This document shows, piece by piece, positions 34,061 to 37,950 of a stretch of DNA of 64,000 nucleotides. Position numbers and translations under genes: made by a program. The stretch is from the NCBI RefSeq assembly GCF_017308075.1, contig NZ_JAFKFX010000027.1, positions 186,001-250,000 on the forward strand, read 5' to 3'. This DNA comes from Allobosea sp. (GTDB lineage: Bacteria > Pseudomonadota > Alphaproteobacteria > Rhizobiales > Beijerinckiaceae). Positions within the stretch are counted from its first letter, which is position 1; every line of letters starts with the position of its first letter. Below the pieces are notes generated by a model that did no database searches, had not been told where the DNA came from, and was given only the letters and a program-made list of their open reading frames with translations.

Positions 34061-35656
34061 TCAGGAACGCGGCGTTCTGACGGAAGCGCCGCGAAGGCGC
34101 AAGAGCAGCGGCCCGAAAGCCCCGAGCATCCAGCCCGCGAGGCCATAGACCAGGGCCCCGCCGAGACAAAGCACAGCCAGCGCCGCGGCGCGCGACAAGG
34201 CCGGCTGGCCATGGGCGAGCCAGGGCTGCAGAGGCGGCAACAGGACCGCGAGCGCCGCCGCCATCAGCGCCGCCGCGAGCAGAATGGCGAGGATGGCGCG
34301 AATCGTCGCAGCATCGGGCCGCCACAGCCGCTCCCGCAGCAGGCAGCCCGTCAGCAGCAGCGCCTGGACGAGGAAGGCGAGGCTCGCGGCCAGCGCGCCG
34401 ATCATCGCGGCGTCGCGCCAGCCGAGCAGGGCATAGCCGGCGCCGGCCGCGACGAGTACGGCGGCGAACCCCGCGAGCAGTGGCAGGCGCGGCCGGCGCC
34501 GGACGAAATAGGCCTGGCCGAAGACCTTGGCGACGAGCGCGAAGGGCAGGCCTAAGGCGAAGGCTGAAAGCGCGGCGGCGGTGCGCGCCCGGTCGGCGGC
34601 GCCGAAGCGGCCCTGCTCGAACAGCACCGAGACGATCGGCTCCGCCAGCAGGAACAGGGCGGTCGCGGCAGGGATGGCGAGGGCGAGGCCGAGCGCCAAA
34701 GCGCGGCCGAGCAGCGCATCATGCGCCGCCTGTGCCTGCTCGCCCGCCATGGCCGAGAGCACGACCGTGCCCATCGCCACGCCGAAGAAGGAGAGCGGCA
34801 GCTGGAAGATGCGATCGGCATAATAGAGCGCGGCGACCGAGCCCGCTTCCGTGGAGGCGATCTGGGTCGAGACCAGCAGGATGAGCTGCGCCGCCGATGC
34901 CGCGAGCAGGGTCGCGCCGCCGGTCCTGACCAGGCGCGTCATGTCGCGCGACCAGCGCAGGCTTGGGCGCGGCAAGCCGATCCGACGCAGAGGAGCGAGG
35001 ATCAGAGCGAGGTGCGCCAGCCCGGTCAGGCTGAGGCCGGCGGCGAGCAGGGTCGCGCTCTCAGCACTCGACCCGCCGCGGAAGAGCTCGACGAACAGGG
35101 CGACAAGCAGGATCGCGTTCATCAGCGCCGGCGCCAGCGCCGCGACCGTGAAGCGGCCCTCGGCATTGAGCAGCGCCGCGAGCAGAGCCGCGAGCGTCGT
35201 CAGCAGCACGAAGGGCAGCATCAGGCGAGTGTAGAAGGCGGCGAGCGCCAGCGTGTCGGGCTCCCCGGCAAAGCCGCCGGCGAGGCCGAGGACCACCCAG
35301 GGCGCGAACAGCTCGGCCAGGGCGACGAAGAGTAGCAGCAGCAGGCAAAGATGGCTCGCCGCCTCGCCGGCGAAGCGCCGCGCCGCCGCCTCGCCGTGCT
35401 CGGCCTTGATCGCAAGATAGAGCGGCACGAAGGGCGCGTTCAGCCCGCCCTCGCCGAGCACGCGGCGGACCAGATTGGGCAGGCGCAGCGCCGCGAGAAA
35501 GGCATCCGCCACCGGCCCGGTGCCGAGCAGGCGGGCGATCAGCACGTCGCGGGCGAAACCGAGCAGGCGCGACAGGATCGTCGCCGCGCCGACGACGAGG
35601 GAATCGCGGGCGAGACGGGGGGAGCTTGGCTCGGGCGGCGCGGAAGCGGACGTCAC
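34061..35656 (-). CDS. murJ: Lipid II flippase MurJ
   Basis: Flips lipid II across the inner membrane for peptidoglycan synthesis. The 531-residue protein has about 14 membrane segments. N-terminal family motifs are [39 protein letters not shown] and FVPLY, matching MurJ/MviN rather than other MOP exporters. The start is a GTG at 35656 with a weak ribosome site. It is divergent from the Panacea-domain gene, with 60 bases between. Confidence 0.95.
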
Positions 35657-35716
35657 AACTTAGCCGTTGCCCTTTTGTTCAGTTGCTGATTCACTTCAAC
35701 TAGACCGGAGGGTGCC

Positions 35717-36253
35717 ATGAAGCCAGAATTCGATCGGGAGAAATTCAAGGCTGTCGTCCACTACCTCTGCCGGCATGCAGGCGATGATTTCGGCAAGATA
35801 AAGCTCCACAAGGCGCTATACTTCGCGGATATGCTGCACTTTATCGACAAGGGGCAGCCGTTGACCGGCGTCGACTATATCAAGCAAAAATTCGGACCGA
35901 CCGCTCGGCACCTGACCTGGGGGCTCGACGAGCTCGCCAGCGATGGAGCGATCCGCGTGTCGCAGGAAAACTACTTCGGCTTGCCCAAATACGCGTTTCA
36001 CACGCTACGCGAACCATCGACGAACCGTTTGTCGGACGAAGACCGCGCCCTGCTGGATGAAGTCCTGAGGTTCGTCGGCGACTACAGCGCCACGGCAATT
36101 TCTGAGCTGAGCCACAATGAGGCATGGCACGCCTTCGAGATCGGTGCCGTCATCCCCTATGAGACGGCCTATTGGCTCGTGCCGACCGAGATTACCGATG
36201 ATGATATGGCCTGGGCCGCAGCGCAGATGCGAGAGCACGCGCACGCTGGCTGA
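35717..36253 (+). CDS. Panacea (SocA-like, DUF4065) domain protein, candidate antitoxin
   Basis: A 178-residue protein. Residues 5-110 fit the Panacea/DUF4065 pattern: FKAVVHYLCRHAGDDFGKIKLHKALYFAD, then YIKQKFGPTARHLTWGLDEL. The KxxLxKxLYFAD segment is the family hallmark, as in SocA and the PanA antitoxins. These antitoxins neutralise many unrelated toxins encoded beside them. The start has GGAGGG four bases upstream. Its stop is five bases from the next gene, so they form an operon. Base composition differs from its neighbours: the line 35761-35820 is 53 percent GC by count, against 72 percent for 36661-36720 in hslU. This suggests acquisition by transfer. Confidence 0.85.
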   Translation: MKPEFDREKFKAVVHYLCRHAGDDFGKIKLHKALYFADMLHFIDKGQPLTGVDYIKQKFGPTARHLTWGLDELASDGAIRVSQENYFGLPKYAFHTLREPSTNRLSDEDRALLDEVLRFVGDYSATAISELSHNEAWHAFEIGAVIPYETAYWLVPTEITDDDMAWAAAQMREHAHAG

Positions 36254-36258
36254 GCGAT

Positions 36259-36534
36259 ATGCGGCAAGTCATCTGGTCCGACCTAGCCGAGCAGGGGCTG
36301 GCGCGCTGCATACCGGCAGATAGGCTCGATGGCGTTCGCACCGCTATTGAATTACGGCTTGCGCACGACGGTGCAATGCCACTCAGGCGCCATCCTGCCT
36401 TCCCTACGCGCCAAATCTACGTCTTCGCCTTGTTCATCGGCGTCGGTGATCTGCGTGGCGTCGTCGAATTCAACGGCGACGCCACGATCTGGCATATCGG
36501 CATCAGGCCACCAAACTCTCGCGCTACAGAATGA
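36259..36534 (+). CDS. Small protein, candidate toxin with RelE/ParE-like features
   Basis: A 91-residue protein in an operon with the Panacea gene. The pattern is [15 protein letters not shown], a helical [14 protein letters not shown], then a basic [12 protein letters not shown] and strands [16 protein letters not shown]. An N-terminal strand, two helices and a C-terminal sheet ending in a hydrophobic strand is the order of the RelE/ParE toxin fold, but no catalytic residue set is convincing. Function is inferred from fold pattern and neighbour only. Its last 11 bases overlap the end of hslU on the other strand. Confidence 0.6.
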
Positions 36535-37831
36535 ACCGGCTGAGATCGGCATTCCTGGCGAGGTCGCCGATCCTCGCCTCGACATAGGCGGCGTCGATCT
36601 CGACCTTCTCGCCGCCGCGATCGGTGGCGGTGAAGGAGATCTCGTCGAGGATGCGTTCGATCACGGTCTGGAGCCGGCGCGCGCCGATGTTCTCGACCGA
36701 GGCGTTCACCGCGACCGCGATCCGGGCAATCGCGTCGATCGCATCGGGCGAGAAGGAAATCTCGACCTGCTCGGTCGCCAGCATCGCCACCGACTGCTTG
36801 ATCAGGCTGGCCTCGGTCTCGGTCAGGATGCGCTTGAAGTCCTCGACGTCGAGCGGCGAGAGCTCGACGCGGATCGGCAGGCGGCCCTGCAGCTCCGGCA
36901 GCAGGTCGGAGGGCTTCGAGACGTGGAAGGCGCCCGAGGCGATAAACAGGATATGGTCGCTCTTCACCGGCCCGTGCTTGGTCGCGACGGTGGTGCCCTC
37001 GATCAGCGGCAGCAGGTCGCGCTGCACGCCCTCGCGCGAGACATCGGCGCCGGAGCGACCCTCCCGGGCGCAGATCTTGTCGATCTCGTCGAGGAAGACG
37101 ATGCCGTTGTTCTCGACCTCGCGGATCGCCTGCTGAACGATCGCGTCCTGATCGATCAGCTTGTCGCTCTCCTCGGCGAGCAGCGGTCCATAGGCGTCCT
37201 TGACCTGGACACGGCGGGGCTTGCCCTTCTGGCCGAAGGCCTTGCCGAACATGTCCGAAAGGTTGATCGCACCGATCGAGGCGCCGGGCATGCCGGGGAC
37301 CTCGAACATGGGCTGGCCGGAACCGCCCGAGGCGACCTCGATCTCGATCTCCTTGTCGTCGAGCTCGTTGGCGCGCAGTTTGCGGCGGAAGGCGTCGCGC
37401 GTCGTCGTGCTCGCCGTCGCCCCGACGAGCGCATCGAGCACGCGCTCCTCGGCGGCGACATGCGCCTTGGCCTGGACGTCCTTGCGCCTGAGGTCGCGGA
37501 CCAGCCCGATCGCGACCTCGACGAGGTCGCGCACTATCGATTCGACGTCGCGGCCGACATAGCCAACCTCGGTGAACTTGGTCGCCTCGACCTTGAGGAA
37601 GGGCGCGTTGGCCAGCTTGGCGAGGCGTCTTGCGATCTCGGTCTTGCCGCAGCCGGTCGGTCCGATCATCAGGATGTTCTTGGGCGCGACTTCCTCGCGC
37701 AGCGGGCCTTCGAGCTGCTGCCGGCGCCAGCGATTGCGCAGCGCGATGGCGACGGCGCGCTTGGCGTCGTTCTGGCCGACGATGTAGCGATCGAGCTCGG
37801 AGACGATCTCGCGGGGGGAAAACGACGTCAT
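36524..37831 (-). CDS. hslU: ATP-dependent protease ATPase subunit HslU
   Basis: Unfolds substrates for the HslV peptidase. The 435-residue AAA+ protein has [20 protein letters not shown] at the start, Walker A in [12 protein letters not shown], Walker B in [10 protein letters not shown], the I-domain insert, the sensor region [15 protein letters not shown], and the HslV-docking C terminus ending SRFIL. ATG at 37831 shares its A with the stop codon of the GNAT remnant (TGATG), implying translational coupling. AGGA is nine bases upstream. It is downstream of hslV but separated from it by a membrane-protein gene. Confidence 0.97.
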
Positions 37832-37950
37832 CAAACAGGTTCCTGGACCATGATCAGCGCGCGACCGTCGCCGGTATCGCGTTCTTGGAGAGCGGTGAAG
37901 CCGGCCTTCTCATAGGCACGGATCGCGGCGAGATTATCCGACCTGCTCAT
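37831..37950 (-). pseudogene. C-terminal remnant of a GNAT acetyltransferase gene
   Basis: An uninterrupted 39-codon frame encodes [18 protein letters not shown] followed by about 20 more residues ending MVQEPV. The DN[12 protein letters not shown] segment is the conserved C-terminal motif of AAC(6')-like GNAT acetyltransferases, but the acetyl-CoA-binding core is absent. Its ATG overlaps the stop of the upstream membrane-protein gene (ATGA) and its stop overlaps the hslU start (TGATG). Rhizobial genomes, from memory, carry a full GNAT gene between hslV and hslU, so this is most likely the surviving end of that gene. It could still be translated as a coupling peptide. Confidence 0.75.

Follow-up and report, generated by a model that had tools for sequence, protein, structure and literature searches.

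A Panacea-domain gene pair, very probably a toxin-antitoxin module, at the variable hslU-murJ junction of an alphaproteobacterial genus

Two small genes lying between murJ and hslU in the window, the 64,000-nucleotide stretch of DNA analysed here, very probably form a toxin-antitoxin (TA) module, judging from their sequences, with a standalone Panacea-domain protein (PanA) as the proposed antitoxin and a 91-residue partner as the proposed toxin. We regard it as fairly likely that they make up a two-gene, type II-like cassette whose toxin belongs to the RelE/ParE superfamily, an accessory element exchanged at the hslU-murJ junction (Table 1). This junction is a TA insertion hot spot, because among 41 genomes of the genus the same slot holds a Panacea pair (PanAT), a ParDE module, a remnant, or no TA genes.

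Table 1. The gene pair and its surroundings, in window coordinates
Feature	Position	Strand	Basis
panA, standalone Panacea (SocA_Panacea) protein, 178 aa, proposed antitoxin	35717..36253	+	PF13274 match
Small partner, 91 aa, proposed RelE/ParE-superfamily toxin	36259..36534	+	22-partner family, PDB profile matches
Region upstream of panA, common to start of murJ	35657..35716	+	three-genome alignment
murJ, slot flank	34061..35656	-	ORF; murJ name by eye
hslU, slot flank	36524..37834	-	ORF; present in 41/41 sampled same-genus genomes

The open reading frames confirm the arrangement described in the first-pass annotation, two genes five bases apart between murJ and hslU; both run opposite to their flanking genes, and the last 11 bases of the partner overlap the end of hslU. 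That annotation had also placed the genes in a patch of about 53% GC, a figure that is wrong, while the patch itself is real: the pair has 58.9% GC, compared with a window mean of 68.6%, 73.1% for murJ and 66.7% for hslU, and it is the GC low point of the window, with a single lower stretch among 1264 sampled 818-bp stretches, itself overlapping the pair. Third-position GC follows the same pattern (0.74 and 0.66 for the pair vs 0.89 for murJ and 0.92 for hslU).

The first gene had been assigned to the Panacea family, and its product matches Pfam PF13274 with an E-value of 1.1e-18 and 68.6 bits, well above the curated cut-off of 25.7, whereas against the NCBIfam SocA model it reaches 20 bits of a required 190 and so does not qualify as a SocA equivalog. 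The GPV motif named for this domain in the available part of PMC8832971 appears here as a variant, in a protein that passes the Pfam cut-off: the GP is kept in all seven PanA sequences aligned, followed by T in six and by A in one (L008). Upstream of panA, the block GTTGCCCTTTTGTTC...CTGATTCA is conserved among all three carriers of the pair in the alignment, which makes it a candidate promoter. A 5-bp dyad in this region (AGTTG/CAACT), proposed earlier as an operator, is indeed present, but we reject it: such a dyad, with 5-bp arms and a 3- to 15-base loop, occurs in 79% of 1000 90-bp stretches drawn at random from the window, and this one is kept in neither of the other two carriers.

The partner by itself matches nothing in Pfam or NCBIfam at an E-value of 10, nor in PADLOC at an E-value of 1. 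Three of the 61 genomes searched (the window's own included) carry the pair, the same three holding both genes and all belonging to one genus; in the other two carriers (L012, L013) it occupies the same hslU-murJ junction, with PanA 71% and 80% and the partner 50% and 34% identical to the window copies. Within the genus, partner identity is 34-50% and the frame is open in all three. A wider search with a profile of seven PanA sequences yielded 25 genome loci and one viral locus, and in 21 of these 26 a partner frame of 82-106 residues lies directly downstream of panA, its start falling anywhere from about 125 bases ahead of the panA stop to 10 bases past it. The expectation that the two families would co-occur elsewhere is thereby borne out, and the reading as a Panacea-based, TA-like module is supported; the architecture is that of PanAT systems, with an adjacent partner within 100 nt, kept in two or more species.

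The partners share a C-terminal pattern resembling R-[VI]-L-Y-E-I ... W and, in window numbering, keep E70 in 19 and W78 in 18 of 22 members. The 21 were accepted as members on their position and alignment, with start codons picked by the analyst (some TTG or GTG, and the L026 row without a usual start codon), the genus trio alone being given an independent profile test. Against a profile of the 19 non-genus partners, the window protein scored 15.8 bits and that of L012 18.6, where the best of 3000 shuffled sequences reached 8.2; the L013 partner, at 5.7 bits, fell under the best shuffles. A window ORF scoring 15.6 bits in this profile search is the same frame as the window partner. Aligned by hhalign, the genus trio and three distant partners gave an E-value of 5e-5 and a probability of 68%. 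Searches beyond these loci were negative: the small protein had no tblastn match in plasmids or phages, PanA found nothing in plasmids and four weak phage records, the partner and PanA of L027 found nothing in plasmids, and a scan of genome contigs with the small protein alone gave 97 pattern matches, none confirmed. A partner profile (A4) matched nothing in 385 genomes of the class, a null that says little because that set included no genome with a known match.

Five of the 26 PanA loci are without such a partner (L014, L030, L033, L034 and L036). In L014, a Hyphomicrobium MAG, panA is intact and the partner frame broken, so that this may be a solitary antitoxin; in L030 (3001-4074) a panA frame without a stop runs into sequence that by eye resembles peptide deformylase, with no small partner; in L033 the locus is interrupted close to the end of its contig; L036 is from Gracilibacteria; and in L034, from an archaeon, the panA relative stands beside a 132-residue protein whose five PDB matches at a threshold of E 1 are all of HigB type (E 0.004-0.005). 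Nine other loci (L025-L029, L031, L032, L035 and L037) have a PanA of 196-212 residues with a C-terminal extension and a partner frame overlapping the end of panA by about 70-125 bases, an overprinted stretch absent from the genus copies.

PanA and its partner are co-inherited. Over 22 loci their pairwise distances are correlated (Spearman 0.449, equalled in 0 of 5000 permutations), and without the genus trio the correlation is 0.507, again with 0 of 5000. They change at different rates: mean identity over these loci is 43% for PanA and 23% for the partner, which is the less similar of the two in 231 of 231 pairs, and within the genus panA has a dN/dS of about 0.06-0.08 and the partner one of about 0.33-0.56, figures that are rough because synonymous sites are near saturation. 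The quickly changing part is thus the proposed toxin and the slower one the proposed antitoxin, a pattern that relaxed constraint on the toxin would resemble. Synonymous distance in panA (pS 0.70-0.74) exceeds that in the flanks (0.29-0.43), and we tried it as a measure of the age of the PanAT; we claim no date, because the codon bias of the GC-rich flanks and saturation both confound pS.

The state of the slot was surveyed in 41 sampled genomes of the same (larger) genus, all of which contain hslU, with the side beyond the hslU end read in 30 loci, ten further stretches and L005. PanAT occupies it in three genomes, so that most of the sampled relatives are without the pair at this site; ParDE occupies it in eight, a parD remnant in two, and 26 have no TA genes there (the murJ match starts 3-146 bases past hslU, and none of the TA queries matches), while in the last two murJ is not adjacent, meaning that none lies within 1.5 kb of hslU. 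PanAT and ParDE occur together at the slot in no genome of the 41. The eight ParDE modules (L040, L042, L044, L053, L056, L065, L067 and L069) lie on the hslU strand; an example ParE matches PF05016 with an E-value of 1.2e-13, and its ParD, which has no Pfam match at 0.01, takes its name from position and likeness. In five of the seven ParDE loci viewed, parD is preceded by an operator-like dyad, TGTCTTCA...TGAAGACA, with one mismatch in L053, the stretch from L044 being too short. Two loci (L041 and L062) retain parD remnants without parE, which amounts to decay of a module in place. One of the 26 loci without TA genes, L045, has a palindromic repeat in the slot instead: a repeat-like GTCATTGCGAG... 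and its inverse stand just after hslU in L045 and L041, and by eye only in L044, similar in kind to the repeats between folA and apaH in E. coli. Among 16 genomes of other genera of the family, murJ lies within 1.5 kb of hslU in three, and the four TA queries had no match; one hslU-murJ insert in another genus is a 249-aa ORF that looks metallophosphoesterase-like by eye.

On a tree of the flanking DNA, which may differ from the species tree and in which ten rows have under half of the columns, PanAT requires three changes and ParDE with its remnants nine. A single seven-row clade with 100/100 support contains two PanAT, two ParDE, two empty slots and one remnant, and slot states overall are no more clustered than when shuffled (14 changes vs a shuffled mean of 14.2). 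In one of the 28 ParDE pairs, G007 and G014, parD and parE (pS 0.18 and 0.20) have diverged less than either flank (0.34 and 0.38), suggesting a single recent exchange.

Elsewhere the pair keeps other company. In L025 and L032 it adjoins an ISXO2-like (IS1595) transposase, and the elements so formed (L025:2400-6235 and L032:2216-6096) are bounded by inverted repeats, identical at 28 of 28 and 28 of 29 positions, and by end duplications that agree at 8 of 8 bases, GATAGTTC (in the symmetrical register) and CATTTCCG; 8 bp is the usual target duplication for IS1595. Both elements also contain a membrane-like ORF and a small ORF that is DUF6471-like by eye. Near L021 there is a related transposase, with no inverted ends seen around the pair, and a transposase fragment is present in L010; the end motif of L025 and L032 was found in neither the window nor L002-L013. 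The only copy on a viral contig (L037:3771-4964) immediately precedes a phage portal gene (Pfam Phage_portal, 2.7e-71). Among the ten neighbours chosen for a survey of PanA loci are ahcY, rph, pyrF, groEL and priA, with a short-chain dehydrogenase in L035 and a gene without a match at 1e-10 in L019. Since these loci adjoin such genes or the phage portal gene, hslU is not a neighbour of the family as such.

If the partner is the toxin, the question becomes which fold it adopts, and here we consider RelE/ParE probable rather than proven. The catalytic residue set of RelE-like toxins is not conserved in the family, since the position of partner R66 holds R in only 12 of 22 members. With an alignment of all 22 partners (A6) as a profile query against the PDB, at E-values up to 10, seven chains were matched, of which the leading five are RelE/ParE-type, aligned over most of their length at E 0.07-1.1 (labelled toxin-like protein, toxin RelE, YoeB, YoeB and Rv2866; the first and last we take to be RelE-type toxins), and the other two are unrelated. 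A 16-member profile (A7) that leaves out the genus trio, L015, L016 and L023 is led by four of the same chains at 0.15-0.63, followed by six unrelated ones at 1-1.5. Reversed sequences gave nine PDB matches with none in this superfamily, although the E-values of the real profile overlap the best reversed one, 0.3. Pfam ParE_toxin is matched by two of the 22 partners at 0.068-0.076, alongside other weak one-member matches to DUF5508 (0.036) and Rx_N (0.12) and four NCBIfam models matched by one partner each, the best, at 0.02, an acylphosphatase model. A length of 82-106 residues and the top profile matches thus liken the partner to RelE, YoeB, HigB and ParE, while the lack of any significant single-sequence match and the unconserved R66 set it apart from them. 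The first-pass reading of the small protein as a RelE/ParE-like toxin therefore stands in its first half, a likely toxin on sequence grounds, and for the fold is weakly supported, by profile E-values of 0.07-1.1.

The pair could instead be a genuine Panacea TA system whose toxin has another fold or target, the RelE/ParE likeness being a coincidence of weak profiles. Panacea does pair with many unrelated toxin folds (PMC8832971, as far as its text was available), no partner has a significant match as a single sequence, an eight-partner profile that includes the window protein (A8) matches nothing in the PDB, and hhalign of the partner family against the eight ParE of the same slot returns a probability of 0.4 (0.1 each for the ParD and PanA controls). 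We nevertheless think this unlikely, as all five leading PDB matches fall in one superfamily over most of the length, and in none of the reversed controls, the ParE_toxin matches point the same way, and the archaeal relative in L034 is paired with a HigB-type protein. Rather improbable, too, is a decaying or non-toxic module in which the small gene evolves under relaxed constraint and PanA is kept for another reason: the dN/dS of the partner, its low identity within the genus, the broken partner frame beside an intact panA in L014 and the parD remnants in the same slot would all fit, but the three genus carriers and 21 of 26 loci have an open frame, E70 and W78 are widely kept, and the partner is co-inherited with PanA. 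A SocAB-like (type VI) arrangement, with PanA as the adaptor that delivers the partner to an AAA+ protease such as ClpXP or the neighbouring HslUV, would fit with hslU adjoining the pair and has a precedent in SocA, which contains Panacea and brings SocB to ClpXP (PMC8832971, available part). We think it very improbable, as the SocA model is missed by so wide a score, an unrelated ParDE uses the same slot, and PanA loci elsewhere stand beside other genes.

The RelE/ParE-type cassette that we favour is a known kind of system, because both Panacea-ParE pairings and TA slots are already in print. The suggestion that the pairing might be undescribed does not hold, as the accessible text of PMC8832971 already names ParE among predicted Panacea partners; it also reports that 938 of 1268 putative toxins had no domain match and notes PanATs near transposases. 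In the portion of PMC10440598 available to us, standalone Panacea proteins neutralise directly, a sensor role for Panacea is proposed, and RelE/ParE is listed as one of the folds common in the TA network. The pair resembles the PanAT systems of both papers in joining a Panacea protein to a small adjacent partner and differs in that its partner family is without a library match and its toxin changes faster than its antitoxin. That family is unnamed by Pfam, NCBIfam and PADLOC, and may correspond to one of the 88 toxin clusters of PMC8832971. The SocAB system of Caulobacter shares the Panacea domain, but PanA falls far below the SocA cut-off and the partner is unrelated in size and, according to the libraries, in sequence. 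Closest to the slot are the relA-mazG site (mazEF or parDE) and the folA-apaH site, intergenic positions described in the consulted part of PMC7167474 as holding alternative TAs, repeats or nothing; the present slot differs in that it lies between hslU and murJ, belongs to an alphaproteobacterial genus and, inside one close clade, occurs in four states (PanAT, ParDE, remnant and empty). TA genes also travel as passengers inside Tn3-family transposons (PMC7157771, in part), whereas L025 and L032 lie in IS1595-type elements and the window copy is without such ends. A search of titles and abstract starts, with few subscription journals, returned no description of the hslU-murJ slot or of IS1595 PanAT elements. 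The partner family is thus unnamed and the locus instructive within a known class.

How the cassette might work follows from this comparison. PanA would be made first and bind the co-expressed 91-residue partner, presumably neutralising it directly, and the partner would arrest growth, either by cleaving mRNA or by inhibiting gyrase, once PanA disappears or detects a trigger. As an accessory element, the cassette would have entered the short hslU-murJ junction and then, in close relatives, been exchanged for ParDE or dropped; after the first insertion, homologous recombination within the conserved genes on either side would be the probable route of exchange. More tentatively, and with no great confidence, we suggest that the slot could be a docking site for allele-like replacement of TA modules and the PanA-toxin cassette a mobile one that IS1595-type transposons and phages have spread elsewhere; in this cassette Panacea would be the constant sensor and a RelE-like toxin the variable part, diverging several times faster.

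The movement and integration of TA systems are called unelucidated in the part of PMC7167474 that we cite. In this genus a single junction with 26 slots free of TA genes, eight ParDE, three PanAT and two remnants among 41 genomes makes insertion, exchange and decay directly traceable, and the distant PanA-toxin copies in transposons with matching ends and target duplications help to trace how such modules move. The pairing of a fast toxin with a slow antitoxin, in turn, bears on what the Panacea domain does.
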